A DNA stretch of 28,097 nt from IMG/VR virus record IMGVR_UViG_3300025671_000393, positions 1 to 28,097 of that record. One strand, written 5' to 3'. Positions 3,666 through 22,680 of the stretch are shown here, piece after piece. Every line of letters starts with the position of its first letter. The first letter of the stretch is position 1. The notes under the pieces are model-generated. The model saw only the letters and a list, made by a program, of their open reading frames with translations. It had not been told where the DNA came from and ran no database searches. Both the position numbers and the translations under genes were made by a program. Source of the stretch: a virus.

Positions 3666-3874
3666 TGCGCGCGGCGGTCGTGCTCGCGTGCCTCGGGCTC
3701 GCAGGTTGCGGCGCCCCTATTGCGGCACAGGTTGACACCGCGGATCAGTCCGCGGGCGTCACTGTGGACGGGTGGGGCGTGGAAGTGTCGTGCAAGGCGG
3801 ATCACCTGTGCGTCGTCACGCCAGTCGGTCCCGTTTGTTTTCCCATGCCTGGAAAGGTGTGTGCGTGGCTTTGA
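3665..3874 (+). CDS. Small lipoprotein, candidate spanin/lysis accessory (69 aa)
   Basis: The ATG at 3665 shares its A with the holin-like stop (TGATG). The N-terminus MRAAVVLACLGLAGCGAP is a lipoprotein signal peptide with lipobox LAGC, giving Cys14 as the lipidated residue. The mature part of about 56 residues has four further cysteines (VSCKADHLCVV, GPVCF, GKVCAWL), which suggests disulfides outside the cytoplasm. Position in a lysis cassette makes an outer-membrane spanin subunit possible if the host is Gram-negative. It lacks the Pro-rich stretch usual in Rz1. An exclusion or surface lipoprotein is an alternative. Confidence 0.6.
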   Translation: MRAAVVLACLGLAGCGAPIAAQVDTADQSAGVTVDGWGVEVSCKADHLCVVTPVGPVCFPMPGKVCAWL

Positions 3875-8134: not shown

Positions 8135-10579
8135 TCAGATCGGCAGTCCATTCGCTGCCGGTCCGTCGTTGCTACCTGCCCCGAGTGCGCGCGTCAACCC
8201 TTTTTCGGTCAGCACGACACACCGCACGCGACCGTGCCCGATCCTGACCTGCTTCGTGTATCGCGTGGACGACTCGCACTCGACCCACCCGCGCTCGCGC
8301 CACGCGGGCAGCACTGTGTCCGCCGCGTATCCCTGCCGCCGAAGATGATCGCGCAGCCAGCCAGCATCGAGGGCCAGCGACTCGGGACCGTGATCGCCCC
8401 ACGTCACACGACCGATCCATCCACCGGGCGGCATCTGCGTTGCACCGGGCGAAGCGAGCCGATCCGCCTGCATCTGCGCACCTGTCACAGCTTCCTCCAG
8501 CGCCTCGCGCGAGCGGTCCGCAGTTGCTCCGGTCGACATGATTGACAGTGCGATGCCTCGATCTATCCAGTTGTCCGCATCGTGCAACCCCGTTGCACGG
8601 TGCAACAGTTCGCCCACGACTGCGAGGGACGCCAGGTGCATACAGATCCGATCGCCTACCGGATGATCTGCCCATCGCGCGTAACATTGCGCGGAGTACA
8701 CCTCGCACCATTCCGCGTGTCTGCGTCGCAGCTCGTCACGGTTCGCCCCTCGCAGCAACTCAACGAACCGCGGCAGCGCGTGCCCGTGATGCTCGCGCAC
8801 CGTTGCGACAATGCCTCGCACCTGCCGCCCCATGTCCTGACCGACTGCACCCCATACCGGATCGCGCACGGTCAGCACACGCGCGCGCAGTCCGCCAGCA
8901 CCGCAGGCAGCCTCGACCAGTGGACCCTCGCCCGTGCTGATAATCCACGAGTGCGACGGCGGTGACGCCTGCATGCCTCCACCGGCAGATCCTCGCAGTC
9001 GCGACTTGCCTGACGTGATGTCGTAAACAATCCCCTGCACGTCCTCGATCCGGCGCGCGCGCATCGTGTCATCTAGGGCCAGTGTGATCCCGCGGGACCG
9101 TGCCGCCAGTCGTTCGACTGCGATCCGCGTAGTGTCCCACGTGCGAGTCAGTGGCTCGGGGTCCCCGAGACAGGACAGCGCCACGCGAAGCGCGGACGTT
9201 TTGCCCTGCGATGTCGTGCCCGCGATGTCGATGCACGCCGCGTCAATCTCTAGCCACTGCGTCAGCGTGGACGCGAGCGCGCCGCACATTGCGAGTCGGA
9301 CTCCGGGTGACTGCACCGCGTGCCGCATTGCGCCGATCCACGTATCGAACGACCCGCGCGGCGCTAGTGCCTCGATCCCCGGATCGGTGCCGGGGTCGCC
9401 TGCCGCGTAGACAGGGGCGTCCCCGTGGCGAATCGTGCCCGCGAGAAAGGCTCCATTATACCACCCGGTCGATGATGCGGACCGGTGCCGCGGGATGCGC
9501 GATCGGTTCGCTTCCTCGTACGCGGTCAGGTATCGCACTAGCTCCGGGGCGGTGTGCTGATCGACTGGCAGTCCACGACCGGACCACGGGGTCAGAGTGC
9601 GAGACGATGCGAGGTCCGCTCGTGGGATGTCTAGCACGTGCGATCGCCACTTGATCCGCCACGTGTGCAACCCGGTGTCCACGTCCACGCCGCAGTTGAC
9701 AACGGCGATCGGACACTCGCACACCGCCGCGCGCTTGCTGTCGTCCACAATCCGCACGAGCGCGCCCGCCTCGACTGCCCATCCCTCGGGGATGATCGGG
9801 CGGTCCAGTGCGCGAAGCGCGCCCGCCAGCCCATCGTCGCCCACCTTTCGGTGGAGATCGTCCACGTCGTACCCCTTCGGTCCGTCGAGGCGCACGATCT
9901 CGCAGTCGATGCCAGCGTCCCGCAGCGTCGCGCGTGCCTTCTCTGCACCCTTCTCGCCTGCCTCGTCCGCATCGTATGCGATACGCACGACACGATCTCG
10001 CAGTGCGGGGATCAGCGCGCTGATGTCCTGCGTCGCACCGACGAGACCGCACACCGCGTTGACGCCCGATTGCCAGCACGCCCACACTGACGGCTCGCCC
10101 TCGACGAGATACACAAGATCACCGGGCTCGCCCGTGCGACCGTACGCGCACGCGCGCCCGCCTCTGCGAGCCCATCGAGGCTCGGACGGACCGGTCGACA
10201 GTCCGCGCAGTCGGTCCACGCCGCACGGTGTGCCGAACCTGATCAGGCCCTGCTTGACCTCGACGATCTCGAACTCCGCGGCGATGCGGTCCGGGTCGAG
10301 GTGTCGACGGTGACACCATTCGCGCCACCCCATGATCTGCGGCGTGCTCGTCGGTGCCTCAACCCCGAGTCTCTGCGCGAGGTCGTACAGACTGCCGGAT
10401 TCGTCGGTGCTGTGATCTCGCCACGCACCGCCGTCCGTGTCGTCCGGTCGACAGTCGAACGACGGGCGCTTGTCCGGTCGCAGTGGCGATCGGATTGTAT
10501 ACCACCCTGACGCTTTAGGCTTCACGCCTCGCGTCGCCTCGTCGAGTCCGCACGCGTGCCACAGTTTCCGATCAGTCAT
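8135..10579 (-). CDS. Primase-helicase: TOPRIM primase fused to DUF927-like P-loop ATPase (814 aa)
   Basis: The N-terminal 75 residues follow the CHC2 primase pattern (SPLRPDKRPSFDC, then SLYDLAQRLG), but the zinc cysteines are missing. TOPRIM follows at about 150-260, with VEGE (159-162) and DADEAG (203-208), giving the metal-binding Glu and Asp-x-Asp. The second half is a helicase/ATPase domain with Walker A GTTSQGKT (454-461) and Walker B LALDD (500-504). The C-terminus looks like a winged helix (GWVECESSTRYTKQVRIGHG). It would unwind and prime at the fork. No DNA polymerase is in the window, so synthesis may depend on the host or on genes outside. The start overlaps the helicase stop by eight bases. 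Confidence 0.85.
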   Translation of the reverse strand: MTDRKLWHACGLDEATRGVKPKASGWYTIRSPLRPDKRPSFDCRPDDTDGGAWRDHSTDESGSLYDLAQRLGVEAPTSTPQIMGWREWCHRRHLDPDRIAAEFEIVEVKQGLIRFGTPCGVDRLRGLSTGPSEPRWARRGGRACAYGRTGEPGDLVYLVEGEPSVWACWQSGVNAVCGLVGATQDISALIPALRDRVVRIAYDADEAGEKGAEKARATLRDAGIDCEIVRLDGPKGYDVDDLHRKVGDDGLAGALRALDRPIIPEGWAVEAGALVRIVDDSKRAAVCECPIAVVNCGVDVDTGLHTWRIKWRSHVLDIPRADLASSRTLTPWSGRGLPVDQHTAPELVRYLTAYEEANRSRIPRHRSASSTGWYNGAFLAGTIRHGDAPVYAAGDPGTDPGIEALAPRGSFDTWIGAMRHAVQSPGVRLAMCGALASTLTQWLEIDAACIDIAGTTSQGKTSALRVALSCLGDPEPLTRTWDTTRIAVERLAARSRGITLALDDTMRARRIEDVQGIVYDITSGKSRLRGSAGGGMQASPPSHSWIISTGEGPLVEAACGAGGLRARVLTVRDPVWGAVGQDMGRQVRGIVATVREHHGHALPRFVELLRGANRDELRRRHAEWCEVYSAQCYARWADHPVGDRICMHLASLAVVGELLHRATGLHDADNWIDRGIALSIMSTGATADRSREALEEAVTGAQMQADRLASPGATQMPPGGWIGRVTWGDHGPESLALDAGWLRDHLRRQGYAADTVLPAWRERGWVECESSTRYTKQVRIGHGRVRCVVLTEKGLTRALGAGSNDGPAANGLPI

Positions 10580-12170
10580 TGCCTATCCCCTCCACGATCT
10601 TCGTCGTTGTCTCACTGTCACGTTCCATCGAACCGAGCACGAGTCCGCACGCGTACACCGTGGACACGCGAGGCGGGTCAGCAGCATACGCGAGGCGGGT
10701 CAGCAGCGGCAACCCGCGACCGCGCACTTTCTGCCGCAGCCACCCGAGTTGCCGCCAGCTTGCGGCGCTCTGCAAATAGGTGTCAATCCGCTGTGCTTTG
10801 ATCTTGCGTGCGTTCTCGCGCACTAGCTCGGGCAGGGTGCGACACAGTCCCGCGGCATGTAGTCGCAGAACCGCGTTTCTGATCGCAACCTCGTCGTCCG
10901 ACATAACAGCAGGGATCGATCGCGTGCCCGCTGCGATGTCGAGATCGAGTCCGATGTCTAGCACGTGCCGCAACCATACCACGTCAGGCGGATCTTGTGG
11001 TCGGGGCGCGTATTGCGTGGACGGTAGTTCGATCGTCTCACCGTCGAGATCAAACGTCACGCCCTCGGGGGTCAGCGTGCACGGCAGCGGCAGATCATCC
11101 GGTGCGATCCGGTCTGCGATGTGCCGGTATACCTCGGTGATCATTCCGTCCCTGATCTGCATGGTCGCTTGCGCGGGCGGTCCCATGTCCGGCGCGATGT
11201 CCTCTAATGCCGCAGACAGTGCCGCGGGATCGTGCAACGAGTGGATGTCCGCCACCCCGAACGGGTCCCACACGAGGACTTGATCCTTGCTCGGATACGT
11301 CCGCAGCACTCGCCCGATCTCCTGTGCATACGCCACCCGAGACCCGCGCGGATGAGTCAGGCCGATCCATCGCAGCCACGGAAGATCGACACCCTCGACG
11401 AGACACGCGACATGCACGATCGCGCGAATCTCTCCGCGCTCAAGTCGTGCCAGTCGGTCCGATCGCTCGGCCTGCGACTGCCCGCTGTGGTACGACTCGA
11501 CACCGTCAAGCGCGCTCGCGAGCGCGTCCGCGCTGCTCCGCGTCGATGCCGAGAACACGCCCGATCCGTCCACCTGCTCAAGCCAAGCGCGGGCGCCCTC
11601 GACAAGATCGTCCTCGGTGCATCGCACGCCCGCAAAGGTCGGCAGCATCACGACACCGTCGCGCACAGCTTGCGTCAGGTCGTAGTGATACCACACGCCC
11701 GCCCACAGTTGCAGCGCGTCGCCCTCGTCAGCGAGGTACGGGGTCGCAGTGAATCCGAGCGAGCGCGACGGGGCGACCGACTTGCGCCACTCACTGATCG
11801 CCCACGTGTTCGTTCGGTGCGCCTCGTCCGCGATCCACACGTCGCAGTCCGTGACGTGCGACAGGCTGCGCGGATCGTAGCTCGTGACAGTCACACGTCG
11901 CGAGGTGTCTCGGTGCCCGGTGCAGACTCGCCCGACATCCAGTCCGCGGCGCTCAAGCGTGCCCGCTAACTGGTGGACCAGTCGCAGCGTGGGGGCAGTC
12001 ACCGCAACGCGTCCCTCGGTGTGCGCGATGACTTCCGCCAGTGCAACCGACTTGCCCGCGCCCATCGTCGCGACGATCAGTCCTCTGTCGTCGCCCGCGT
12101 CCCATCGCCTCAACACCTCGTCGAACGCTGCCGCCTGCCACTTTCGCGGGGTTAGTCCGCCCCACATCAT
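10572..12170 (-). CDS. DEAH-box superfamily 2 DNA helicase (532 aa)
   Basis: SF2 motifs appear in order: Q-like region LTPRKWQAAAFDEVLRRW, Walker A TMGAGKS (35-41), Ia TAPTLRLVHQL, motif II DEAH (115-118), motif III GFTATP (139-144), and motif VI QEIGRVLR (283-290). This is the UvsW/RadD/type III restriction-like branch used in phages for branch migration or unwinding. The C-terminal 200 residues are less conserved. The last 40 codons contain a 22-base tandem duplication that is not a multiple of three. The ATG overlaps the methyltransferase stop. Confidence 0.85.
   Translation of the reverse strand: MMWGGLTPRKWQAAAFDEVLRRWDAGDDRGLIVATMGAGKSVALAEVIAHTEGRVAVTAPTLRLVHQLAGTLERRGLDVGRVCTGHRDTSRRVTVTSYDPRSLSHVTDCDVWIADEAHRTNTWAISEWRKSVAPSRSLGFTATPYLADEGDALQLWAGVWYHYDLTQAVRDGVVMLPTFAGVRCTEDDLVEGARAWLEQVDGSGVFSASTRSSADALASALDGVESYHSGQSQAERSDRLARLERGEIRAIVHVACLVEGVDLPWLRWIGLTHPRGSRVAYAQEIGRVLRTYPSKDQVLVWDPFGVADIHSLHDPAALSAALEDIAPDMGPPAQATMQIRDGMITEVYRHIADRIAPDDLPLPCTLTPEGVTFDLDGETIELPSTQYAPRPQDPPDVVWLRHVLDIGLDLDIAAGTRSIPAVMSDDEVAIRNAVLRLHAAGLCRTLPELVRENARKIKAQRIDTYLQSAASWRQLGWLRQKVRGRGLPLLTRLAYAADPPRVSTVYACGLVLGSMERDSETTTKIVEGIGND
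10666..10707 (+). repeat. Tandem 20-bp direct repeat (22-bp period) inside helicase gene
   Basis: ACGCGAGGCGGGTCAGCAGC occurs perfectly at 10666-10685 and again at 10688-10707, separated by two bases. The period of 22 is not a multiple of three, so the two copies are read in different frames of the helicase: LLTRLA in one, ADPPR in the other. It looks like a recent slippage duplication near the C-terminus. Confidence 0.9.
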
Positions 12171-13543
12171 ACCAGATCCAAAAGTGAGGTTTGACCGGGC
12201 ACCGCGTCGGGCTCGTCAGCGGCGGGCGGATCGATCTCGGGGTCCCATTCGTGCGGGTGCGCGACCGCGTGCGCAATTCGCCCGCGTGCGAGGTCGGCGT
12301 ATTCGTGCGAGAGCTCGCAACCGATAAACCGGAACCCCTCGAGCGTCGCCGCGATCCCGGTCGTGCCGCTGCCGGTGAACGGGTCGAGCACGACTCCGCC
12401 CGGTGGCGTGACGAGTCGCACGAGCCACCGCATAACGGCGACCGGCTTGACCGTGGGGTGCACGTTGCGGCGCTCGGTTTTGCCGCGCTGGTAGGCGTTG
12501 TCAGCTGCGACCGCGCGACCGTCGCCCACCGTCTCGGGCTCGCGGTGCGTCAACCCGCGCTCGCGTTCGGCGCGGCTCGCTTTGGCGTGGTAGAAGAATC
12601 GGGCGGCGGATCCGGTGTCGCCCGTTACCCGAACGCTCTGCTCTGCCGCCTCGCTCGACCAGATCCCGCGCGTCTTCCGAGACGCAAAGACGCCGCTCGA
12701 CGTCACCGGAAACCCCGCGAGCACTTCGGGCGATCCGTCGTGTAGGACGTTGGCGGGGAATCTCCCGCGCACTGTGTTGTCAAATACAGGCTTTCTGGTT
12801 CCCCATCCTTCGGCCTGTGGATCGCCTTGTGCGACTACGTGCCCGACTCCGCCCTCACTCCCCACCCGACACCCATCCACATTGATCGCCCCGGTCCCGT
12901 GCGTCGTCACGTTGTGCGCGACGGTGCCGGATAGCGGCTTGCGAGCGAGCACGATCGGTTCGTGCGCGGGTTTGAGCGCGGTGCCCCATCCGTTCCACTG
13001 GCGAGCGGCTTCGGTGGCGGGTGCGGTTATGTCGTAAATTCCTGGGCTTGTGTTCATTCGCGCGGTGTGCCCGTCCGTTGATTCGGGACGGTTCCAAGAT
13101 TGTGCTTTCCCCACCACCTCCCGTTCCGCCCCGGCCGCGCGGTCAATCGCCTTGCTGACGTTCAGACTTTTCGGGAACCCGGACCCGTAAAGCCAAAGCA
13201 ATTGATCCCGCACTTCAAAGCCAGCGAGCCGCACGCCCATGACGATCCAGTCGTACGTGCGAGACCCCGCGAACGCGAGCAGGTGGCCGCCCGGTTTGAG
13301 CACGCGAAGGCACTCCGACCAGACGACCGGCGACGGGACGAAGGCGTCCCAGGCCTTACCCATGAATCCGCGCCCGCCCGGCTGATACTCGGCGCCGTCA
13401 AGCCACGCCGCGAGCACTTCGCGCGGGTCGGGCTCGCGCCCGAGTCCATACGGCGGATCGGTCACGACCGCGTCGACGCTCGCGTCGGGCATCGCGCGCA
13501 ACGTGTCGAGACAGTCCCCGACTGTGATCAGTGTATCCGTCAC
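12167..13543 (-). CDS. DNA N4-cytosine/N6-adenine methyltransferase (458 aa)
   Basis: I start at GTG 13543 (MTDTLITVGDCLDTLRAMPD), which overlaps the upstream stop as GTGA; the 82-residue extension to 13789 is antisense-like Arg-rich sequence. Motif IV is DPPYG (29-33), then TYDWIVMGVRLAGF. Motif I is DPFTGSGTTGIAA (387-399) near the end. DPPY-first order with the SAM motif last is the beta-type layout. The target domain lies between and includes the phage-typical AINVDGCRVG and FPANVLHDGSPEV boxes. It would methylate adenine or cytosine amino groups on phage DNA. There is no restriction partner nearby, so it is solitary. Specificity cannot be read from the sequence. Confidence 0.9.
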   Translation of the reverse strand: MTDTLITVGDCLDTLRAMPDASVDAVVTDPPYGLGREPDPREVLAAWLDGAEYQPGGRGFMGKAWDAFVPSPVVWSECLRVLKPGGHLLAFAGSRTYDWIVMGVRLAGFEVRDQLLWLYGSGFPKSLNVSKAIDRAAGAEREVVGKAQSWNRPESTDGHTARMNTSPGIYDITAPATEAARQWNGWGTALKPAHEPIVLARKPLSGTVAHNVTTHGTGAINVDGCRVGSEGGVGHVVAQGDPQAEGWGTRKPVFDNTVRGRFPANVLHDGSPEVLAGFPVTSSGVFASRKTRGIWSSEAAEQSVRVTGDTGSAARFFYHAKASRAERERGLTHREPETVGDGRAVAADNAYQRGKTERRNVHPTVKPVAVMRWLVRLVTPPGGVVLDPFTGSGTTGIAATLEGFRFIGCELSHEYADLARGRIAHAVAHPHEWDPEIDPPAADEPDAVPGQTSLLDLV

Positions 13544-13854
13544 GGTGCAAACCTCCGAGTGATGTCCTCGCAATACGGCGCGAGCAGGTCTCGCGCAGAG
13601 TCGCGGTTGTTTTCGTAACTGGTCACAATTCCGATCGATGCGTCCGCGTCGTCGAGTGCCTGCTTGATATCTCGCAGCAGTCCCACCGGGCGCATCCCCG
13701 CGCGCCCCGTGGGCACGTGCGACACGATCCACATATCCGAGTCGCGACGAGCGCGTCGAACGTGCCAGCGACCGGACGGTGACAACCACCCGTCGACCTC
13801 GATCGGCTCGCGGTGCCGTTGATTGATTCGGATTCGCTTACGTGTCCATTTCAT
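13540..13854 (-). CDS. Hypothetical basic protein (104 aa)
   Basis: The ATG at 13854 overlaps the stop of the upstream zinc-ribbon-like gene, and the stop overlaps the methyltransferase start. The N-terminus is very basic (MKWTRKRIRINQRHREPIEV). It is followed by a beta-rich middle (DGWLSPSGRWHVRRARRDSD, MWIVSHVPTG) and a helical tail. No family is recognised. The basic character and place between two methyltransferase genes would fit nucleic-acid binding, but this is only inference. Confidence 0.65.
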   Translation of the reverse strand: MKWTRKRIRINQRHREPIEVDGWLSPSGRWHVRRARRDSDMWIVSHVPTGRAGMRPVGLLRDIKQALDDADASIGIVTSYENNRDSARDLLAPYCEDITRRFAP

Positions 13855-14129
13855 TCGTCAACCCTCCCGATCCCACCGCACGCGGGACACGACATGTCCC
13901 ACAGTCCGCTATTGTTCCGAGGCTCGTGACGCGGGCGCCGCGGGTTGTCGACAAGCCCGGAGCCCTCGCACGCACTGCACCGCACTCGGGACACGTAGTC
14001 GTCCCACGCCCGATACACTGCGTCCATGTCCACGTCGTCACCGAACACGAGCACCGCGGCGGATTCCTCGCATCCCATGATCGCCGCACGCTCTGCCCAT
14101 CGATCGATCTCGTCGTCGGTTATCTGCAT
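13851..14129 (-). CDS. Small protein with DnaJ-like CxxCxGxG zinc motifs (92 aa)
   Basis: The first 45 residues are acidic (ITDDEIDRWAERAAIM). Two cysteine motifs follow, CSACEGSG and CPACGGIG, about 33 residues apart, the spacing of a single zinc-binding ribbon as in the DnaJ cysteine-rich region. Phages often encode such short zinc-ribbon proteins beside replication genes; their function is not known. The ATG lies ten bases inside the end of the cytosine methyltransferase gene. Confidence 0.75.
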   Translation of the reverse strand: MQITDDEIDRWAERAAIMGCEESAAVLVFGDDVDMDAVYRAWDDYVSRVRCSACEGSGLVDNPRRPRHEPRNNSGLWDMSCPACGGIGRVDE

Positions 14130-15022
14130 TGCTCAACCTCCATGATGATCCGCCCGAGTAGTTCGGGGATCTGCGGGACGATCGCGTTGCCTAGTCCTCG
14201 GAGTCGAGGCACGTCCAGTGCAACGGGAACCCCATCATCCATTCTACGAACTGGGGATGGAGCCTGCCGCGGTATCCAAGCGCACCGATCGCCCCCTCGG
14301 TGTGCATCCTTTTCTGGTGGAATCGCTGAATATTTGACGGGCAGATCGTCGCGCACTTGTGCATTGACGCGGTCGGGGTCGGAATCAGACAGCCCAACAT
14401 CGCCAGATCCGCCAGCGATAACATCGCCGTGCGACCGTCGCTCGTGCGCGTGCGAAGCGTGCCCGAGCTCGTGCGTTCGATCGGACCTGTCCGCGGACTC
14501 GTGCGCGTGTCCACCGTCGTTGGCGTCGGCAGTAGCTCGCCACGCCACGACGAACACTCGGTCGCGTAGGTGCGGGGCGCCGAGGGCCGCAGCGGGTATG
14601 CAGTCCCACCACGCATCGTACCCGAGCGCGGCCAGGTCTCCGAGAACGGCCCCGAAGCCCAATGAAAGGTGCCCTGCGACGTTTTCCAGTAGCACCCATC
14701 GGGGTCGTAGATGGCGCACGCATCGGGCAACCTCTGGCCAAAGATGGCGCGGGTCAGACTCGCCCGCACGCGATCCCGCGTGACTGAAGGGCTGGCACGG
14801 GTAGCCGCCGCACACGATGTCAACGGGTTCGACGGTCGACCAGTCGATCGATCGGATGTCTCCATAACAGGGCACCTCAGGCCAGTGTTTCGCGAGGATG
14901 GCGCGGGCGTCGGGGTCGATCTCGCATTGCCACGCAACCGACATTCCCGCGCGCTCAAGTCCGAGATCGAATCCGCCGATCCCGCTAAACAATGATCCTA
15001 CACGCACAGCGTGACCCCCCAT
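14120..15022 (-). CDS. DNA (cytosine-5) methyltransferase (300 aa)
   Basis: I start at ATG 15022 (MGGHAVRVGSLFSGIGGF), with AAGGGA eight bases upstream; the much longer frame to 15649 overlaps two real genes. Motifs run in order: I LFSGIGGFDLGLERAG, IV GGYPCQPFS with nucleophile Cys76, VI ENV (113-115), VIII-like PHLRDRVFVVA, and X LRGLGNAIVPQ at the C-terminus. The target-recognition region (about 165-265) is short and His/Asp-rich (HESADRSDRTHELGHASHAH). It would methylate cytosine C5 on phage DNA. No paired endonuclease is visible, so an anti-restriction or regulatory role is likely. Confidence 0.92.
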   Translation of the reverse strand: MGGHAVRVGSLFSGIGGFDLGLERAGMSVAWQCEIDPDARAILAKHWPEVPCYGDIRSIDWSTVEPVDIVCGGYPCQPFSHAGSRAGESDPRHLWPEVARCVRHLRPRWVLLENVAGHLSLGFGAVLGDLAALGYDAWWDCIPAAALGAPHLRDRVFVVAWRATADANDGGHAHESADRSDRTHELGHASHAHERRSHGDVIAGGSGDVGLSDSDPDRVNAQVRDDLPVKYSAIPPEKDAHRGGDRCAWIPRQAPSPVRRMDDGVPVALDVPRLRGLGNAIVPQIPELLGRIIMEVEQCR

Positions 15023-15504
15023 CGGACGCGTCCCTTGCTGTCCAGCGGACGACCGAACCTCACGATCCCCGCGCGGTGCATTTCGTCGAGACGCTGCTGT
15101 GCGTGCTGGATTGACGAGAATAGCAACGCGTCGCGCACCGAGGCAGGCGACCCCCACACACTGCGATTCGTCCGCAGCGTCAGCGCCGTGACCGCGCGCG
15201 CCATGTCGCGCGCCGCTGGATAATCCGTGATCGGGTCGCGCATCACGTGCACCTCGTCCCGCGGATCGTCCGTGTCGTCGTCGGTGAACTCGTACAGTCT
15301 GCGCAGCCTGTGCCGGTCCGCGCATCCGAGCGCCACCGCCGCAAGGTTCAACCTGCGCTCTGCGGCGCCGGGGTCGATGTTCTGCCGTTCCGCGATCACC
15401 TTTAGTGATTCGCCCTGCATCCAATTCGCGATCATACGAGCGGCCACTTCGGGGTACTTGACCTCGCGATCGGCCAGGTATTCGGTCAGTTCGTGGTGGT
15501 TCAT
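14998..15504 (-). CDS. Hypothetical HTH-like protein (168 aa)
   Basis: The N-terminal third contains a possible sigma-70 region 4-like helix-turn-helix (WMQGESLKVIAERQNIDPGA). The middle is acidic (FTDDDTDDPRDEVHVM). The C-terminal third (LLFSSIQHAQQRLDEMHRAG, then GRPLDSKGRVRWGVTL) looks like a second winged helix. No family name can be given. Two DNA-binding-like parts at the start of the leftward operon suggest a regulator. Both ends overlap neighbouring genes by codon sharing. Confidence 0.65.
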   Translation of the reverse strand: MNHHELTEYLADREVKYPEVAARMIANWMQGESLKVIAERQNIDPGAAERRLNLAAVALGCADRHRLRRLYEFTDDDTDDPRDEVHVMRDPITDYPAARDMARAVTALTLRTNRSVWGSPASVRDALLFSSIQHAQQRLDEMHRAGIVRFGRPLDSKGRVRWGVTLCV

Positions 15505-15704
15505 TTGTGATCCATTGTGTAGCGGATTGCGTTGACGATCGCGTCCCGCAGATCGCGGGCGCCCTCCATGTCCAGCACGATCGCCGCGGTGCTGCCTCCC
15601 GGTGTCGTGCTGTCAGTGCATACCACCGACAACGAGGTTGCATCGACATGCACAGTCAGCGTGTCCGCGGGATATTCGGCACAGTGCAGCGTTGCAACGA
15701 TCAC
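15501..15704 (-). CDS. Small strand-helix protein (67 aa)
   Basis: The GTG start at 15704 shares bases with the upstream stop (GTGA). The sequence has beta-strands (TLTVHVDATSLSVVC), a Gly/Ser turn, another strand (TAAIVLD) and a closing helix (MEGARDLRDAIVNAIRYTM). The pattern of a strand pair followed by an acidic-capped helix is shared with the proteins at 5833, 19290 and 19483. No function is assigned. Confidence 0.6.
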   Translation of the reverse strand: MIVATLHCAEYPADTLTVHVDATSLSVVCTDSTTPGGSTAAIVLDMEGARDLRDAIVNAIRYTMDHK

Positions 15705-16195
15705 CGATACGACCCCGCGCCGATGATCATGGATACGATCATCTCAAGCTGTGCACTTGTCGGTCCGACTGCCCATACTGATGTGTCGCCCTCACCGACT
15801 GGATTGACACCGTATTCGACGGACAGCGCCGCAAGCACTGTCTCGATCCTGTCGGTCTCGTCGTCGGTCAGCAGGCCAGGCACTCGCACGGACTCGGTTA
15901 GATCGTCGCCCAACCACGACCCGCTGTGCTCGTACCACGCGATCGACGTGTGCCGGTCGACAGTGACAGCGGAGCACGTATCGATCACGCTCTGGCAGTT
16001 GTGGATCTTCGCGTGCCAGCGATCATCGTCTGACATACCGCCAGCGGCCAGATTGTAGCAGGGTCGCCAGTCAGACAGCGCGACCGGATCAAGCGGTATG
16101 ATCTCGTCGCTCGTGTGCAGCACGTACACGTCCTCGAACTGCTCAAGCGTGCACCCGGTCTGGTCCTCAACCATATCCTCGTCAATGTATCGCAT
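15701..16195 (-). CDS. Acidic hypothetical protein, first gene of the leftward operon (164 aa)
   Basis: The ATG at 16195 has GGAGG eight bases upstream, the best ribosome site in the operon; the frame's extension to 16369 runs through the control region. I count about 30 Asp/Glu against about 8 Lys/Arg, with clusters such as YIDEDMVED and LLTDDETDRIE. No domain is recognised. As the first, probably earliest-expressed gene, upstream of two methyltransferases, a DNA-mimic anti-restriction role is possible, but there is no sequence match I can name. Confidence 0.65.
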   Translation of the reverse strand: MRYIDEDMVEDQTGCTLEQFEDVYVLHTSDEIIPLDPVALSDWRPCYNLAAGGMSDDDRWHAKIHNCQSVIDTCSAVTVDRHTSIAWYEHSGSWLGDDLTESVRVPGLLTDDETDRIETVLAALSVEYGVNPVGEGDTSVWAVGPTSAQLEMIVSMIIGAGSYR

Positions 16196-16243
16196 GCGTC
16201 TCGCCTCCACCGATCCGGGGACCCATCGCCCTCGGGTTGACCT

Positions 16244-16273
16244 ATGGATGCACGGTCGAGGATCGCGCGTCAA
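16244..16273 (-). promoter_or_regulatory. Possible leftward operon promoter
   Basis: On the minus strand TTGACG (16273-16268) is a good -35 element. The best facing -10 is weak: TGCATCCAT, 15 bases further. It lies about 50-70 bases upstream of the first leftward gene and just downstream of the palindrome, the right place for a regulated early promoter. The -10 match is poor, so confidence is low. Confidence 0.3.
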
Positions 16274-16295
16274 GCACAAAACGCGATCTGTCGCA

Positions 16296-16319
16296 GGGTG
16301 ATCGGTCCAGCGATCACCC
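16296..16319. promoter_or_regulatory. Palindromic operator-like site
   Basis: GGGTGATCG and CGATCACCC are perfect 9-base inverted arms around GTCCAG. There is no T-run on either strand, so it is not an intrinsic terminator. It sits 23 bases upstream of the candidate leftward -35, as an operator or activator site would. Confidence 0.5.
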
Positions 16320-16449
16320 CTTGTGTCCCCACTTGACGCTGACCGGTGGGGACAAGCGGTGCCCTGCAACCTGCCGGAATTGTTGCACTCTCAATTTCGT
16401 GTCTCCACCGGTGGGGACAGAGTGGGGACACGAGAAACCCGTGTGTTTC

Positions 16450-16472
16450 TAGATAGATAGATAGATAGATAG
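16450..16472. repeat. (TAGA)n tetranucleotide microsatellite
   Basis: Five full TAGA units plus TAG run without interruption, followed by TTCAAAAAATACCC. It is the most AT-rich spot in the window and lies between GTGGGGACA boxes. Tetranucleotide tracts are slippage-prone, so copy number may vary between phage isolates. Confidence 0.9.
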
Positions 16473-16516
16473 TTCAAAAAATACCCTTTGTCCCCACTGT
16501 CGCGAAACATAGCCTT

Positions 16517-16544
16517 TACGCGCGCGCGTGCGCGCGTGCGCGCG
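16517..16544. repeat. Alternating pyrimidine-purine CG tract (Z-DNA-prone)
   Basis: Twenty-eight bases alternate strictly between pyrimidine and purine, almost all CG with single TA and TG steps. Such tracts adopt left-handed DNA under negative supercoiling. It lies between the AT-rich segment and the downstream boxes. Confidence 0.8.
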
Positions 16545-16718
16545 GCGGTGTTGATCTCTATTGAGTGGGGACCGGGGACAAGCGCCCGAAACTGCAACCA
16601 AGCGCGCGGAATCATTGAAAGAATCTTGTCCCCGGTGGGGTGGGGACACGGTGGGGACACGGGCTCGGAATCCGCGCAACCCGTTGAAATTGCTACGGTC
16701 AGCGGTGGGGACACCCGG

Positions 16719-16747
16719 TTGCACCGCGCGCGCGCGCGTGATAGTGT
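16719..16747 (+). promoter_or_regulatory. Rightward promoter, leaderless start for the resolvase gene
   Basis: TTGCAC (16719-16724), a 17-base spacer, then TAGTGT (16742-16747) preceded by TGA, an extended -10. Exactly six bases separate the -10 from the ATG at 16754. Transcription would therefore begin at or next to the start codon. No ribosome site is present. The same geometry is seen before the portal gene. Confidence 0.5.
16725..16740. repeat. Second alternating CG tract, inside the resolvase promoter spacer
   Basis: CGCGCGCGCGCGCGTG occupies almost exactly the space between the proposed -35 and -10 elements of the rightward promoter. A B-Z transition there would change promoter geometry. 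Confidence 0.75.
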
Positions 16748-16753
16748 CGGCGC

Positions 16754-17188
16754 ATGCAGGTCATCGGGGTCGACATCGGCGCGAAGGGTGGGATCGCTGT
16801 CTACGACGGACAGCGGTTCGAGACATGGCAGGCAACCCGAGACCGGCCACTGTGGCAACTGGCGATGCTCGTGCGCGAGCAGCACTCGGGGTTGCCCTGG
16901 TACGTGGAAGCGCCGATCGACGTGGCACACGGTCAGCGAAGTGAACGCAGTATCGGGCGGGGACTCGGACAGCTTGACGTTGCGATCCACGGGGTCAGTC
17001 GATTCGACGTGCATCCGTCACGCTGGCAGTCCGCGTTAGGTCTGCGAGGACTGACAAAGGCACAGAAGAAAGCAGCGGCAGAGAAGATCAGCGGATGCGC
17101 GCTCGGTGAGGGCGCCGCGGACGCGGTGTTGATCGCTCTGTACGCGTGGCGATTGCGGGACACGATGTCCGTGACGTTGAGAGGGTGA
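16754..17188 (+). CDS. RuvC-like Holliday junction resolvase (144 aa)
   Basis: RNase H-fold motifs are visible: Asp7 in VIGVDIGAKGGIAVYD, Glu52 in WYVEAP, and Asp123 in EGAADAVLIALYAW. The conserved VHPSRWQSALGL stretch of phage RuvC-like proteins lies in between. The enzyme would cut four-way or branched DNA before packaging. It is translated from an ATG without a visible ribosome site, just behind an extended -10. It is followed two bases later by the small terminase gene, so debranching and packaging are coupled in one transcript. Confidence 0.88.
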   Translation: MQVIGVDIGAKGGIAVYDGQRFETWQATRDRPLWQLAMLVREQHSGLPWYVEAPIDVAHGQRSERSIGRGLGQLDVAIHGVSRFDVHPSRWQSALGLRGLTKAQKKAAAEKISGCALGEGAADAVLIALYAWRLRDTMSVTLRG

Positions 17189-17190
17189 CA

Positions 17191-17595
17191 ATGGGCAAGC
17201 GTAAGGGACCCGATCCGAGCGCGGTAGAACGCAGGGCACAGGCGCTCGAACTGCGCAAGCGCGGGATGTCGTACCGGCAGATCGGACAGGAACTCGGGGT
17301 TAGCAGGAACACCGCGCACAAGTACGTGACCGCAGAACTCGACGAACTGCGCGCAGAGACCAGGGTCAGCGCGGAGCAGCTGCGGGATCTCGAACTCGAA
17401 AGACTCGATCAGTACCTCGCGCGACTGCAACCGAAGATCGAGGACGGTGACGAGAAGGCGATCGCGACCGCGTTGCGAGTGCAGGAACGGCGCGCGAAGC
17501 TGACCGGACTCGACGCACCGCAGCGGACCGAGGTGACGATCGGGGGCGAGTCCGCGATCGACCGACTGCGCGAGGTTGTTGGGGGCGACAGTTGA
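17191..17595 (+). CDS. Terminase small subunit, HTH DNA-binding (134 aa)
   Basis: I use the ATG at 17191 with a GAGGGTG site, not the earlier in-frame ATG inside the resolvase gene. Residues about 10-50 form a helix-turn-helix: ALELRKRGMSYRQIGQELGV, then SRNTAHKYV. A long helical middle (AEQLRDLELERLDQYLARLQ) follows, as expected for the oligomerisation domain of small terminases. It is directly upstream of the large subunit. It would recognise the packaging site on phage DNA. The stop codon overlaps a TTGACA promoter element. Confidence 0.85.
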   Translation: MGKRKGPDPSAVERRAQALELRKRGMSYRQIGQELGVSRNTAHKYVTAELDELRAETRVSAEQLRDLELERLDQYLARLQPKIEDGDEKAIATALRVQERRAKLTGLDAPQRTEVTIGGESAIDRLREVVGGDS

Positions 17596-17621
17596 CACCC
17601 GCTCGCATCGCGTGGCATGCT
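17592..17621 (+). promoter_or_regulatory. Promoter ahead of the large terminase gene
   Basis: A perfect TTGACA (17592-17597) overlaps the small terminase stop. After 18 bases comes CATGCT (17616-17621), preceded by TGG. The layout matches the promoters at 19035 and 19997 when aligned on TTGACR and TGG. It gives a leader of about 70 bases before the terminase ATG. Confidence 0.45.
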
Positions 17622-17640
17622 GCGTCAACCCCTCCATCGG

Positions 17641-17679
17641 CCCCCGGTCTGCGGACGCGTATGCGACCCGGACCGGGGG
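17641..17679 (+). promoter_or_regulatory. Stem-loop in the large-terminase leader
   Basis: CCCCCGGTC (17641-17649) and GACCGGGGG (17671-17679) form a perfect nine-base GC stem with a 21-base loop. No T-tract follows. It lies between a promoter and a start codon that lacks a ribosome site, so a role in translation control, RNA stability or factor-dependent attenuation is possible. Confidence 0.55.
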
Positions 17680-17697
17680 TTCGTCGTTCGTGGCGTC

Positions 17698-19023
17698 ATG
17701 CCTAGTCTGATCGAGAAACTGCGCGCGCGCCCCAAGCACGAGCGCGACGCGTGGCTTGCGACGCTGACACCGGACGAGGCGGTCCGCTTGCTGCACTCGT
17801 GGATCGTGCACGGTCGACACGAGCAGATGACGCCGCGCGGGGACTGGCGATGGTGGGTCGTGCTCGCGGGTCGTGGCTTCGGCAAGACACGGACCGGCGC
17901 GGAGCAGGTGCACTTATGGGCAGAGCAGCAACCCGGATGTCGCATCGCGCTCGTCGGCAGGACGTACCGCGACACCCGGTCCGTGATGGTCGAGGGCGAG
18001 TCTGGGATCGTCGCAACGTCGAAACCGTGGAACCCGTGCCAGTGGGAACCGGGCAAGCAAACGATCACGTGGGCGAACGGCAGCACGGCGCAGTGCTACA
18101 CCGCCGATAAGCCTGACGTGCTCGCGGGTCCGCAGCATCACTTCGCGTGGGGCGACGAGTGGTGCTTGTGGCGCGAGGTGGGCGGCATGCACGCGCTTGA
18201 TCAAATGGCGATGGGACTGCGACTCGGGACTGACCCGCGGGCGATCATCACGTCCACACCTCGACCGACTGCGCGCGTGCGGGCGATGCTGTCTCGGGAC
18301 GACGTGCACGTGACGCGCGGGTCGACAATGGACAACCGGCAGAACCTCGCGCCGGGTGTCGTCGACGAACTGTTGAGGCGGTACGAGGGGACGAGGCTCG
18401 GTCGTCAGGAACTACACGCGGAAGTGTTGGACGCGGTCGAGGGTGCACTGTGGGACATCGACACGATCGACGCTGCCCGCGTGGACACCGCGCCGCGCAC
18501 GCTGCCCCGAGTCGTGGTCGCGATCGACCCCGCGGTCACTGCACTCGACGAGTCGGACGAGACAGGGATCGTTGTCGTCGGTCTCGGGGCGGATGGCGAC
18601 GCCTATGTGATCGAGGACTTGAGCGGTCGTCACCCGGTCAGCGACTGGACGCGGATCGCTGTTGATGCCTATCACCGGCACGGCGCGTCGCGCATCGTGG
18701 CGGAAGTGAATCAGGGCGGGGACCTCGTCGAGTCGACGATCCGCGCGGTTGATCGCCGTGTGGCGTACGAGGCGGTCAGAGCGTCACGCGGAAAGGCGAC
18801 CCGCGCCGAACCTGTGTCCGCGCTATACGAGCAGGGGCGGGTGCATCATGTCGGCATGCTGCCCGAGCTAGAGGATCAGCTGTGCGCGTGGGTGCCCGGT
18901 CTCGCGTCACCTGACCGACTGGACGCGCTCGTGTGGGGCGTCACGTGGCTGATGCCGAGCATAGGTCGCGCGCCCGAGGTGTCGTGGGCGGCAGCACCGA
19001 AGATCGCGCGCCGCGGATTCTGA
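17698..19023 (+). CDS. terL: Terminase large subunit (441 aa)
   Basis: I start at ATG 17698; the longer frame from 17617 begins in the promoter. The ATPase domain has Walker A GRGFGKT (58-64) and Walker B FAWGDEW (Asp153, Glu154), with a SAT-like coupling box TSTPRP. The nuclease domain has Asp277 in VVVAIDPAV, Glu336 in VAEVNQGGD, and Asp407/Asp410 in SPDRLDALVWG, the RNase H-like metal ligands of terminase nucleases. It cuts concatemers and pumps DNA into the prohead through the portal. Length is normal for the family. Confidence 0.95.
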   Translation: MPSLIEKLRARPKHERDAWLATLTPDEAVRLLHSWIVHGRHEQMTPRGDWRWWVVLAGRGFGKTRTGAEQVHLWAEQQPGCRIALVGRTYRDTRSVMVEGESGIVATSKPWNPCQWEPGKQTITWANGSTAQCYTADKPDVLAGPQHHFAWGDEWCLWREVGGMHALDQMAMGLRLGTDPRAIITSTPRPTARVRAMLSRDDVHVTRGSTMDNRQNLAPGVVDELLRRYEGTRLGRQELHAEVLDAVEGALWDIDTIDAARVDTAPRTLPRVVVAIDPAVTALDESDETGIVVVGLGADGDAYVIEDLSGRHPVSDWTRIAVDAYHRHGASRIVAEVNQGGDLVESTIRAVDRRVAYEAVRASRGKATRAEPVSALYEQGRVHHVGMLPELEDQLCAWVPGLASPDRLDALVWGVTWLMPSIGRAPEVSWAAAPKIARRGF

Positions 19024-19034
19024 TCGCTTTTTTA

Positions 19035-19062
19035 TTGACGGACGCGATCGGTGTGGTAGGGT
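19035..19062 (+). promoter_or_regulatory. Strong-looking promoter downstream of terL
   Basis: TTGACG (19035-19040), a 16-base spacer, and TAGGGT (19057-19062) with a TGG extension, preceded by a T6 run that could act as an UP-like element. It drives the structured stretch that follows and the four small genes after it. Confidence 0.55.
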
Positions 19063-19067
19063 TTGCG

Positions 19068-19262
19068 GTGCGTCCCTCGCATGGTGCGAGGAGGACCCCG
19101 CCGCGCTTCGGTGGTTCCGGTGGGGTCCACTGACGACGCATCACAGATCGCGCTTGACGCGCAAAATTGATGGAACTACGAACAGAACACCGCCCGCGTC
19201 AATAACAAGTGGGCAGTCACCGCGCCCCGCCCTCGCGCCCCATCAGTTTGTGGGGGCGGGGT
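19068..19262 (+). ncRNA. Candidate structured leader or non-coding RNA
   Basis: The 266-base gap 19024-19289 has no conventional gene, but several stems follow the promoter. CCTCGCA/TGCGAGG (19075-19091) has a 3-base loop. GGACCCCGCC/GGTGGGGTCC (19093-19128) makes ten pairs with one G-U. TTGACGCG/CGCGTCAA (19154-19161, 19195-19202) is an inverted repeat, and CCCCGCCC/GGGCGGGG (19225-19261) is a further stem. A 21-codon frame from GTG 19068 to TGA 19133 would be translated across the first stems if the message starts there, so a leader peptide is the alternative. No known RNA family is recognised. Confidence 0.4.
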
Positions 19263-19289
19263 CCGGTGGCGCAGATGGAGGGTTGAGAG

Positions 19290-19493
19290 ATGGCGTACGA
19301 CGAGATCGTGAGAAGTGATGCGGATGGCGAGTACATCGCCGCGAGCGAGTACGAGGGACAGGTGATGATCGCTTGTGCGGTGCTCGGTGCGAACATTGCT
19401 GTGTTCGTTTCACCGGAGCACGCGCGGCAGATTGCCGCAATGATCGGACGAGTAGCTGACAAGGCGGACAAGGGGTCGGCAGATGGCGATTGA
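19290..19493 (+). CDS. Small strand-helix protein (67 aa)
   Basis: GGAGGG precedes the ATG. Acidic N-terminus (MAYDEIVRSDADGEYIAA), then beta-strands (GQVMIACAVLGANIAVFV) and a closing helix with the signature SPEHARQIAAMIGRVADKA. The layout matches 5833, 15501 and the next gene. It overlaps the next ATG. Its place between terminase and portal does not reveal a role. Confidence 0.7.
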   Translation: MAYDEIVRSDADGEYIAASEYEGQVMIACAVLGANIAVFVSPEHARQIAAMIGRVADKADKGSADGD

Positions 19494-19653
19494 TACGGAT
19501 GGGATCAGGTGGCAGGTGCGCGCTTGTATCGGACCGAACACGGTGCTCGTCACGACTGGCGGTGTGGTTGCCGAGTTCACGCGGGACGAGGCGCAAGCGA
19601 TGATCGACGAACTGCGCGACGCACTGTCGCGCGTGTCCGGTGAGGTGCAGTGA
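19483..19653 (+). CDS. Small strand-helix protein (56 aa)
   Basis: ATG at 19483, with AAGGGG upstream, and TGA at 19651-19653. It reads as paired strands (IRWQVRACIGPNTVLVTTGG, then VVAEF) and a helix TRDEAQAMIDELRDALSRV. It is a likely paralogue in architecture of the preceding gene. The stop shares its A with the next ATG (TGATG). Confidence 0.65.
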   Translation: MAIDTDGIRWQVRACIGPNTVLVTTGGVVAEFTRDEAQAMIDELRDALSRVSGEVQ

Positions 19654-19742
19654 TGGGGTTCGATGCTTTGATCGCGGTCGTGGTATCTGCACTCGGTGGC
19701 GGTGGCGTGGGGTGGCTGGCATGGTGGGCGCACCGTGACTGA
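19653..19742 (+). CDS. Single-pass membrane miniprotein (29 aa)
   Basis: The ATG at 19653 overlaps the previous stop. The peptide is MGFDALIAVVVSALGGGGVG-WLAWWAHRD, one glycine-rich hydrophobic helix with a Trp-rich end. Its TGA overlaps the next gene's GTG start region. Too short for usual gene calling, but bracketed by coupled start and stop codons on both sides. Function unknown. Confidence 0.5.
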   Translation: MGFDALIAVVVSALGGGGVGWLAWWAHRD

Positions 19743-19983
19743 TCGGCGCATCATGATCGCCGCAGCACTGGCGATGCTGGCGGGGCGCGCGCTGGCCCTC
19801 GCTCGTCGCATCGCCCCGACACCTGACGACGACGACGACGACGAACCGGACGGACTGCCGGACGAGTGGCACGACATCGACGACGCGTTGCCTATGCTTG
19901 AATCCGGTGTATTCGTAGTGCACACGCACGGGTCTACGTTCTGGCGGTACATGCACACCGCGCCGGACCAGTGGTCGGCATAA
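19735..19983 (+). CDS. Membrane-anchored acidic protein (82 aa)
   Basis: I use GTG 19735 (MTDRRIMIAAALAMLAGRAL), which overlaps the preceding stop; the ORF from 19696 is a frame extension inside the miniprotein. One hydrophobic segment at about residues 6-24 is followed by a basic patch and a run of six Asp (PTPDDDDDDEPDG), then a hydrophobic-aromatic C-terminus (HGSTFWRYMHTAPDQW). A possible superinfection-exclusion or membrane accessory protein; this is a guess. Confidence 0.6.
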   Translation: MTDRRIMIAAALAMLAGRALALARRIAPTPDDDDDDEPDGLPDEWHDIDDALPMLESGVFVVHTHGSTFWRYMHTAPDQWSA

Positions 19984-19996
19984 CGCGCGCCAAATA

Positions 19997-20025
19997 TTGA
20001 CACGCCTGATCGTGTGTGGTAACGC
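19997..20025 (+). promoter_or_regulatory. Promoter with leaderless start for the portal gene
   Basis: Perfect TTGACA (19997-20002), 17 bases, then TAACGC (20020-20025) with TGG just before it. Six bases later is the ATG at 20032. This copies the arrangement before the resolvase gene, including the GCGCATGC end. It argues for ATG 20032 over the GTG at 20026. The hexamer itself is a weak match, compensated by the TGG and -35. Confidence 0.5.
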
Positions 20026-20031
20026 GTGCGC

Positions 20032-22680
20032 ATGCCTAATAGCGGTGTGCGCACGCCAACGTATCAAACCGGGTGGCAGGTTCCCACGCGTGAACCGACA
20101 TCCGAACTGTACCCGAAGTCCGTCCGCGGACTTGCGGGGATGCCTGGCATATACGATCAGATGGAGCGAGGGCACCCGCGGATCGCCGCTGCTGCCGAAG
20201 AACTCGTACTGACGATCGGTCGCAACGTGCCCGAGTACCGCACGCCCGACGAGGCGACCGCGGACGAGGCGCGCTTTTCTGCACTGTGTCAAGCGTTGTT
20301 CGTCGATGACGTGACGCCTGACGCGGAGTGCGACGCTACCGGGTGGCAGGCACTCGCACCGATGTTGTCGGACTACTACCGCCGCGGGTTCTATCTTGCC
20401 GAGCGGCGCTGGGTCGAGGCACCGACCGAGCGACGACCGAGCGCCGTGGGTGACGGGCGCCGCGTCGAGTTGTTCCAGTTGCACGCCTCGACTGTTGATC
20501 AATACGGGTGGCCCTCGACCCCGAGCGCGAAACCGAACCGCGTGCGGCAGACATCGCGCAGCGGGTCAGCGGTGATCGAGTGGTCGAGGTTGATCCATTT
20601 GCAGCACGGCGGGACGCCCGGTGAGGTCGAGGGGGTCTCGTGGTACCGTCCGCTGGTGATGCTGTTCGAGCGTTGGAAGTCCACGCTACTCGGGGCAGAG
20701 CGTCGCTTGTTCATGGACGCGGGGATGCTGCGGGTGCAGTCGCCCGCGGGCGAGTCGCAGGCGGATCGCGATGCGATGCTGTCCACGCTGCAATCGTGGG
20801 CGAACGGTTACGCGCCGTGGATGATTCACCCCGAGGGGTATGATGTCGCGGTCGAGTACCCGTCCGGGTCGATGCCTGACGTGCGATCGTCGCTTGAGTA
20901 TCTAGACAGCGAGATCGACAACAAGTTGTCGCGCGCGCTTCGGTCGCTCGGAGCAGCTGCGCACGGGTCGCGCGCCCTCGGTGAGGAGATCAGCGCGTCC
21001 GATGACGACGAGACCGCCGCGCGACTGGAGGTGCTGTACGCGGCATACGGTCGGGACAATGCGGCGTGGTTGGCACGAGAGATCGGGTACGCTGGACGAC
21101 TGCCGGATCTGTGCCTCGTCGACGATGTCAGCGTTGACGCTGCGACGTGGGTGACGCGGACCGCCGCCGCGGTGTCGTCCGGTCTGCTGACGTGGAGCGC
21201 GGACGACGAATCGCAGGCACGCGAGATACTTGGACTCGGTGAGCGCGCAGAGGTGGGCGATTCCCGCACGCTGCTCGTCGGTCAGATCCAAGCGGCACAG
21301 GCGATCGTCCAGTCGCTCAATCCGACCGAGCCCGGTGTTGCGCCGATCGCGTCCGAGACCGCGCTTGAGTTGCTGACCGCGGCAGGTGTGCCGTTTGAGT
21401 CCGCACAGCGGATCGTTGATGCCGAGTCGCGCAAGCGTGTCGCATCGCAACCGGTCGCGATGTCGGACGGATTCGTCCCGCCGAAGGGCGCCGCAGATAC
21501 TGCCGCCCGCGCGCTTGAGTGGCGCCGCGAGTACGGACGAGGCGGGACCGAGGTTGGTGTTGCGCGCGCTCGGGACCTGTCGAATCGCGCGAACCTGTCG
21601 CTGGATACCGTCAAGCGGATGAAAGCGTATTTCGATCGCCACGTGGGCGACCTCGACGCAGAGGGTGCAGAGGACGGGGACCCCGGATTCCCCTCTGCGG
21701 GTCGCATCGCGTGGGACCTGTGGGGCGGTGACGCGGGGCGCGCGTGGGCGGAACGGGTTATCCGTCGCAGCGTGGAGCAGCGCGAGCACGCCTCGTGCAA
21801 CCATGCCGAGATCGAAGGCGTAACGGTAACGGGCGCGGACGGTCGCGAGTTCGTGACCTATCGCCCGCTGACCGAGATCGAGGCGGGTGTCACGTGGGCG
21901 GACAATTTCGAGGCACGCGAGGCGCTTGACGAGGCGATGCAACGCGATGTCAACGCGATCGCAGTCGAACACCGCGCCGCAGTGTGGGACGCGCTGTCGG
22001 ACGGGTGGCAACCGGGCGAGCGTGCGTCAGTGTTCGATTCGTACGTTGCACGGTATGAGGCGCGGATCGCGCAGTACCGGCAGGACCTGATCGCGCTAGT
22101 GGGCGAGCAGGCGGCGGGCGAAGCTGCGCGCGCAGTGGCTCGCGGACTGACGACCGACGCAAGCGCGGGCGCGTCCGAGGCTGTCCAGCGTGTCGCCGCG
22201 GAGTCGTCCGCTCGCACCGCTGCCGGTGTGCAGCGTGCCGCCGAGACCGTGGCGAGCAGAGTGCAGGGCGAAGTGGAAACCGCGTGGACGCAGGGCGGGG
22301 ACCGCGGGTCGTTCGCTTCGCGCATCACACCGGGCGGACTGGTTCGCGAGGTGCGCGGAGTAGGCAACGCGATCGAGTCAACCGGGCGACTGGTAGCAGG
22401 CACGCCCGAGGGCGTGGACGTGGTCGCGGTCGTCCGCACCTCGATCCCCGATCGCAACCGGTGCACTGTGTGCCGCGAGCGCGATGGGATCACGTTCCGC
22501 TTGCCCGAGGACTCGGACGAGTGGCGGTCGTGGCCCCTGCCCGATCCCTCGTGCAAGGGTGCGCCGGATTGCCGCTGCGGGTGGCTGATGCTGTACGGTC
22601 GCAGCGCGACGCAAGCGACCACGACCGACGACCAGAAGTTGGATCGACTCGCCAACTCGCCCGAGGTGCGCGATGCTTGA
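20032..22680 (+). CDS. Portal protein fused to a GRGGT-type domain and a MuF-like C-terminus (882 aa)
   Basis: Residues about 1-475 resemble Mu gp29/DUF935 portals: GIYDQMERGHPRIAAAAEEL near the start, DYYRRGFYLAERRW, a core with SWYRPLVMLFERWKSTLLG, and a helical C-region. Residues about 496-583 form a separate domain with GRGGTEVGVARARDLSNRAN and FPSAGRIAWDLWGGDAGRAW, known from phage head proteins but of unknown function. After a long helical stretch, the end has the MuF-type cysteine pattern NRCTVCRERDG then PSCKGAPDCRCGW. Portals are usually near 500 residues, so this is a three-part fusion of genes that Mu-like phages keep separate. It forms the DNA entry ring. Confidence 0.82.
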   Translation: MPNSGVRTPTYQTGWQVPTREPTSELYPKSVRGLAGMPGIYDQMERGHPRIAAAAEELVLTIGRNVPEYRTPDEATADEARFSALCQALFVDDVTPDAECDATGWQALAPMLSDYYRRGFYLAERRWVEAPTERRPSAVGDGRRVELFQLHASTVDQYGWPSTPSAKPNRVRQTSRSGSAVIEWSRLIHLQHGGTPGEVEGVSWYRPLVMLFERWKSTLLGAERRLFMDAGMLRVQSPAGESQADRDAMLSTLQSWANGYAPWMIHPEGYDVAVEYPSGSMPDVRSSLEYLDSEIDNKLSRALRSLGAAAHGSRALGEEISASDDDETAARLEVLYAAYGRDNAAWLAREIGYAGRLPDLCLVDDVSVDAATWVTRTAAAVSSGLLTWSADDESQAREILGLGERAEVGDSRTLLVGQIQAAQAIVQSLNPTEPGVAPIASETALELLTAAGVPFESAQRIVDAESRKRVASQPVAMSDGFVPPKGAADTAARALEWRREYGRGGTEVGVARARDLSNRANLSLDTVKRMKAYFDRHVGDLDAEGAEDGDPGFPSAGRIAWDLWGGDAGRAWAERVIRRSVEQREHASCNHAEIEGVTVTGADGREFVTYRPLTEIEAGVTWADNFEAREALDEAMQRDVNAIAVEHRAAVWDALSDGWQPGERASVFDSYVARYEARIAQYRQDLIALVGEQAAGEAARAVARGLTTDASAGASEAVQRVAAESSARTAAGVQRAAETVASRVQGEVETAWTQGGDRGSFASRITPGGLVREVRGVGNAIESTGRLVAGTPEGVDVVAVVRTSIPDRNRCTVCRERDGITFRLPEDSDEWRSWPLPDPSCKGAPDCRCGWLMLYGRSATQATTTDDQKLDRLANSPEVRDA

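Follow-up and report, generated by a model that had tools for sequence, protein, structure and literature searches.

A candidate phage replication origin of the SaPI/Cch type, set apart from its presumed DUF927 initiator gene

The C-terminal domain of the SaPI Rep protein binds downstream iterons (PMC7581432), and PICI origins contain an AT-rich region between two iteron sets (PMC6092414). The locus described here comes from a virus record (IMG/VR record IMGVR_UViG_3300025671_000393, positions 1 to 28,097); this whole stretch of 28,097 nucleotides is called the window. As in the SaPIbov1 Rep-ori (PDB:8tch) and PICI origins, a DUF927-family initiator helicase with a C-terminal DNA-binding domain is accompanied by two iteron groups around an AT-rich region. 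The window differs from them in being a tailed-phage genome and not a satellite, in its iteron, GTGGGGACA, in the Toprim primase fused to its helicase, and in its array, which is not directly 3' of the helicase gene but 5.7 kb away from it. SCCmec Cch (PDB:5dgk) is also a DUF927 MCM-like helicase, homologous in the helicase core and with its HTH family weakly matched at the C-terminus of the phage protein, but it belongs to a cassette element, whereas the window is phage DNA. Lambda O and other phage iteron origins resemble the window in combining a phage-encoded initiator, iterons and AT-rich DNA, although Lambda O, unlike the initiator proposed here, is not a helicase. We consider, with a probability of about 0.77, that replication of this phage starts at the array, a SaPI/Cch-type origin whose GTGGGGACA iterons are recognised by the phage's own DUF927 primase-helicase.

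The box array and its surroundings

The box occurs nine times in the window, where 0.32 copies are expected by chance and no shuffle gave nine. Eight exact copies, six forward and two inverted, are gathered with four variants in 390 bp, and the ninth, at 4340, is the sole copy outside the array. The features of the region are as follows.

15701 to 16195, minus strand: first leftward gene, for which no family was found in Pfam or PHROGs; left bound of the intergenic region
16324 to 16430: left iteron group, with GTGGGGACA at 16324 (-), 16346 (+), 16411 (+) and 16422 (+) and the variant GTGGAGACA at 16400-16408 (-)
16400 to 16419: near-perfect 20-bp dyad within the left iteron group
16445 to 16485: AT-rich segment, candidate unwinding element, with an A-run and, at 16450-16473, a TAGA microsatellite; the least stable 60 bp are centred on it
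16489 to 16713: right iteron group, with GTGGGGACA at 16489 (-), 16640 (+), 16651 (+) and 16705 (+) and the variants GTGGGGACC at 16565-16573 (+) and CCGGGGACA at 16572-16580 (+) and 16627-16635 (-)
16754 to 17188, plus strand: first rightward gene, a RuvC-like Holliday junction resolvase; right bound of the intergenic region

A preliminary description, made from the letters of the window, had proposed an origin here. Its eight exact 9-mers are all present at the positions it gave, and its two 11-bp pairs are real; the near copies number four. It was likewise right that the boxes flank the most AT-rich patch: the microsatellite is the lowest-GC 60-mer of the window (33%, against 45% for the runner-up) and, between the box groups, the least stable 60 bp. 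Equal density of the box elsewhere, which it had named as evidence against an origin, is not seen, the rest of the window being at background. Boxes and variants share the core GGGGAC or GGAGAC throughout the array. When 500-bp windows were scanned across the whole stretch, the short-repeat score was 36.6 at the array and at most 18.5 elsewhere. Same-strand boxes lie in helical phase with a period of about 10.9 bp, an agreement equalled by 116 of 5000 jittered arrays. The two iteron groups stand on either side of the AT-rich region as in SaPI/Cch-type replicons, without a clean two-sided arrangement of box orientations. Alternating CG/CA tracts, which could favour Z-DNA, are found on either side of the right half of the array (ACGCGCGCGCGTGCGCGCGTGCGCGCG and CGCGCGCGCGCGCGT, at 16518-16545 and 16725-16739). 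No Rfam family or tRNA was found in the window.

The array occupies a 558-bp gap between a leftward replication operon and a rightward packaging operon, as had been described. Genes read leftward extend from 16195 down to about 6360. Besides early genes and the gene of the Toprim-DUF927 protein, they include those for a ResIII/DEAD helicase, a nuclease like exonuclease VIII and an Erf-like annealing protein. Inspection of the translations by eye also picked out, from the motifs DPPYGLG and SLFSGIGGFDLGLERAGM, two reading frames of this operon that resemble DNA methyltransferases, 12167-13789 (-) and 14120-15649 (-). On the right, the resolvase is followed by an HTH protein, located where a small terminase subunit would be expected, and by the large terminase, and the rightward genes are arranged as head and tail genes. 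The phage thus lacks the makeup of a PICI/SaPI satellite, a satellite gene set without capsid genes of its own. As had been anticipated for an origin, the sign of the GC skew switches at 16.0-16.5 kb; since gene orientation also turns there, the switch is not independent evidence.

This position bears on two other readings. Since the array lies in a divergent intergenic region and its boxes are of mixed orientation, they might be operators of a phage regulator serving the two divergent operons, with the AT-rich segment as part of a promoter. We regard this as improbable, because operators seldom reach 12 phased sites over 390 bp, as are present here, and because the arrays of relatives are found inside initiator genes, on the 3' side of helicase genes, or between genes of the same direction. 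A simple scan found no sigma-70-like promoter in the region, which carries little weight for a GC-rich phage. The boxes might also be terminase recognition sites (pac/cosB), given that the small-terminase-like HTH gene and the large terminase gene begin 0.4-0.9 kb to the right. Their relatives, however, lie at replication helicase genes, and the stretches identified hold no terminase genes; recognition by terminase is accordingly very improbable.

In two near relatives (L004 and L045) the array sequence is identical to that of the window, so near relatives offer no test of conservation. One of them, from another sample (L004/L076, compared with window positions 10096-22441), has the same sequence as the window over about 10.1-18.1 kb, apart from 1 difference in 10.35-18.1 kb, and diverges by about 7-13% to the right of 18.1 kb. 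The boundary is sharp, lies within the large terminase gene and reflects either recombination or mixed assembly.

A Toprim-DUF927 helicase as presumed initiator

The preliminary description saw no initiator of a known family and sought the binding protein among the early genes at 14998-16195. Both points need correction, since a recognisable initiator of a known family lies further along the leftward operon.

8135 to 10579, minus strand: presumed initiator, 814 aa, Toprim primase, DUF927 helicase and C-terminal winged helix (about residues 735-798)

Pfam identifies the Toprim (E=1.9e-8) and DUF927 (E=6.8e-33) domains, and the C-terminus has a weak match to the Cch-HTH family (PF18662, E=0.01). 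Its closest PDB relatives by sequence are 8tch (7.8e-19) and SCCmec Cch 5dgk (8.8e-15); Foldseek labels the former as the initiation-of-replication protein of SaPIbov1, with helicase activity. A nine-member profile finds 8tch with E=2e-62, and its C-terminal part matches the oriT-binding protein TcpK with E=0.006. The AlphaFold model has a low to modest overall confidence (mean pLDDT 59.6); searched with this low-confidence model, Foldseek ranks 8tch (2.9e-21) and 5dgk (6.9e-18) at the top and superposes 66 columns of the C-terminal region on the DNA-binding protein TcpK at 1.5 A. According to these sequence and fold relatives, the phage encodes an initiator helicase of the DUF927 family, and the TcpK profile match and superposition identify its C-terminal winged helix as a DNA-binding domain.

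The layout departs from the SaPI/Cch type, in which the origin is immediately 3' of the initiator gene. Here the 3' flank of the helicase gene holds recombination genes and no repeat array, and the array lies upstream of the start of the gene. By layout the locus is therefore not a standard member of this type, though it would work like one. A second displaced array was not found in MT835519, one DUF927 phage without a 3' array.

The distance between gene and array is one reason to consider that the array is an origin whose boxes are bound by another protein, the early product of 14998-15504 or another initiator, with the DUF927 helicase recruited secondarily. The 14998-15504 product has a weak HTH match, and GTGGGGACA boxes lie inside non-helicase initiator genes in two other loci (L022 and L399). 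On the other hand, the boxes adjoin DUF927 relatives that have no such gene in common, and the DUF927 protein has a winged helix of its own. We consider another binder unlikely, though it is the most probable of the alternatives, and prefer direct recognition by the DUF927 helicase.

Repeat arrays at DUF927 genes and recurrence of the box

A significant short-repeat array was present within 500 bp 3' of the gene in 32 of 39 DUF927 loci with enough 3' sequence, a set that includes close relatives and is thus not fully independent. When the six loci found through the box were omitted, 26 of 33 DUF927 genes had a 3' array, against 45 of 472 arbitrary ORFs drawn from loci themselves picked for repeats. 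The repeat word varies by gene (GGTAACC, AGTTCCC, GAGTAAC, AGGTGTA, GTCACAA, GGGGAAC and others). Even proteins 60-66% identical have different repeats, as expected if initiator and iterons coevolve. In alignments inspected by eye, close relatives have a common recognition helix and differ in wing and iteron, and no firm rule for a recognition-residue code emerged from this inspection. THSA-485A, FP_Epona, phiRg507T2_3, AC844P1 and the SaPI-like PT1028 resemble the window in having a DUF927 helicase and a repeat array, but their arrays lie directly 3' of the gene and their iterons (GGTAACC, AGGTGAAAC, GTAACAA, GTAACCA and AGTTCCC) are unlike GTGGGGACA.

Viral contigs with two close GTGGGGACA boxes were collected and then ranked by clustering. 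Irregular clusters occur directly 3' of DUF927 helicases in viral contigs (L084/L059, L085/L060 and L086/L036, from uncultured phages), and irregular arrays directly 3' of DUF927-type genes in bacterial genomes of Saccharibacteria (L145) and Chloroflexi (L138) and of a homologue in Methylocaldum (L116). These arrays are like the window's in having the exact box, phased, around AT-rich DNA, and differ from it in their place directly 3' of the gene; DUF927 helicases with adjoining boxes are only about 20-25% identical to the window's protein. The Methylocaldum gene (1735-3840) encodes a 701-aa protein without a Pfam match, homologous to the Chloroflexi DUF927-type primase-helicase (1.5e-64), and the array begins one base past its stop codon.

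Clusters of the same box are also found directly 3' of VapE helicases (L031; L005 and L054, one family; L322 and relatives, one family) and of a Prim-Pol/DUF3987 protein (L033), close to the end of a primase-polymerase gene (L042), and within replisome-organiser or initiator genes (L022 and L399), a layout that resembles Lambda O, unlike that of the window. In relatives, AT-rich or TATA-rich DNA is flanked by a box group on each side; often the left group is inverted and the right one direct, as in L031, L086 and L145. Pooled over twelve arrays, same-strand spacings peak at 10.8 bp, which none of 1000 nulls matched. Comparison with other elements thus gives good support to the origin reading of the preliminary description; the boxes, which it had allowed might be conserved only as promoter operators, lie elsewhere 3' of or inside replication genes. 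GATA/TATC runs resembling that of the window are seen between box groups 3' of a DUF927 gene (L087) and after a VapE gene (L005); this microsatellite is possibly a recurring unwinding element.

Some clusters have no recognised initiator nearby (L044/G003, L362 and L341). Those at 4775-5065 of L362 and 829-1262 of L341 adjoin genes of no recognised family, possibly new initiators. In phage record G003, six boxes (L098, 5460-5734) adjoin a tail-fibre-like gene, and no relative of the helicase seeds was found across the whole 43.9-kb record. A single GTGGGGACA...TGTCCCCAC hairpin is present in many complete-looking viral contigs of 4.4-5 kb (L358, L360, L367, L374, L379, L386, L389, L396, L404 and similar), which probably form a family of small phages sharing a conserved stem-loop.

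The box is used in hosts of 37% to 70% GC beside diverse phage initiators, and this bears on the possibility that host DnaA binds it as a variant of the high-GC DnaA box TTGTCCACA. The sequence TTGTCCCCA is a single position off TTGTCCACA. Nevertheless, TGTCCCCAC is found in every box and TGTCCACA in none, conservation does not extend to the leading T, and the DnaA boxes of a DnaA-dependent origin (TTATNCACA or TTGTCCACA) are absent from the array. Together with the range of hosts, this makes DnaA binding barely credible.

Controls limit what recurrence of the box can say. With the reversed motif as control, 2 of 80 loci had a mixed-strand cluster of at least three boxes; with GTGGGGACA the figure was 14 of 73, of which two (L004 and L045) come from the phage of the window itself. 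Enrichment was confined to such clusters, close pairs in viral contigs being no commoner than pairs of the reversed motif, and three-box matches in bacterial genomes were mostly tandem repeats. Both of these last results would suit chance or a functionless repeat (a minisatellite or REP-like element). Against this stand the mixed-strand enrichment and the irregular, phased boxes on both strands of the window, and we give such an origin of the array a negligible probability. A seed-related gene lay within 1 kb in 13 GTGGGGACA loci and 2 reversed-motif loci, a comparison biased because most seeds came from the test loci, with only L003, L070, L038 and L052 as independent non-seed matches. VapE and DUF3987 genes sampled without such bias from one class of genomes had no GTGGGGACA, and their arrays were weaker or absent, so use of the box across families rests on motif-selected loci. 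Most surprising of all is that an exact 9-mer recurs beside initiators of unrelated families, and search size as well as biology may be behind this recurrence.

Proposed mechanism and implications

According to the preferred reading, the DUF927 primase-helicase would recognise the GTGGGGACA iterons through its C-terminal winged-helix domain and assemble on both iteron groups. It would then melt the TAGA/A-rich segment between them, load itself and unwind, probably in both directions, and the fused Toprim domain would make the primers. The analysis shows the array with its weak middle segment, the helical phasing, the homology of the helicase, and the recurrence of such arrays and of the exact 9-mer beside related helicases; we infer that the protein binds the boxes and melts the segment, that unwinding runs both ways and that the locus acts as an origin. 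As GTGGGGACA also accompanies unrelated initiators, the box by itself does not point to DUF927.

It is tempting to go further and propose that GTGGGGACA is an origin box common to unrelated initiator classes (DUF927, VapE, Prim-Pol/DUF3987 and replisome organisers), through repeated convergence, exchange of DNA-binding modules or a common cellular factor, and that in the window's phage the origin has become separated from the initiator gene. We hold this wider proposal only tentatively and think it somewhat doubtful.

This kind of origin is already known from SaPI and PICI elements; the variant here belongs to a phage, has GTGGGGACA as its iteron and lies away from the initiator gene. No such phage was found in open-access papers, where the texts with both GGGGAC and iteron concern other elements.

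In summary, our results assign a probable origin and initiator to an unannotated phage lineage. They also offer an easy way to locate origins, by searching the DNA 3' of DUF927 helicases for phased short repeats, and such arrays appear widespread among the phages, plasmids and genomic elements that carry these helicases. With close relatives that have different iterons and distant ones that have the same iteron, these helicase/iteron pairs make a winged-helix recognition code directly testable.
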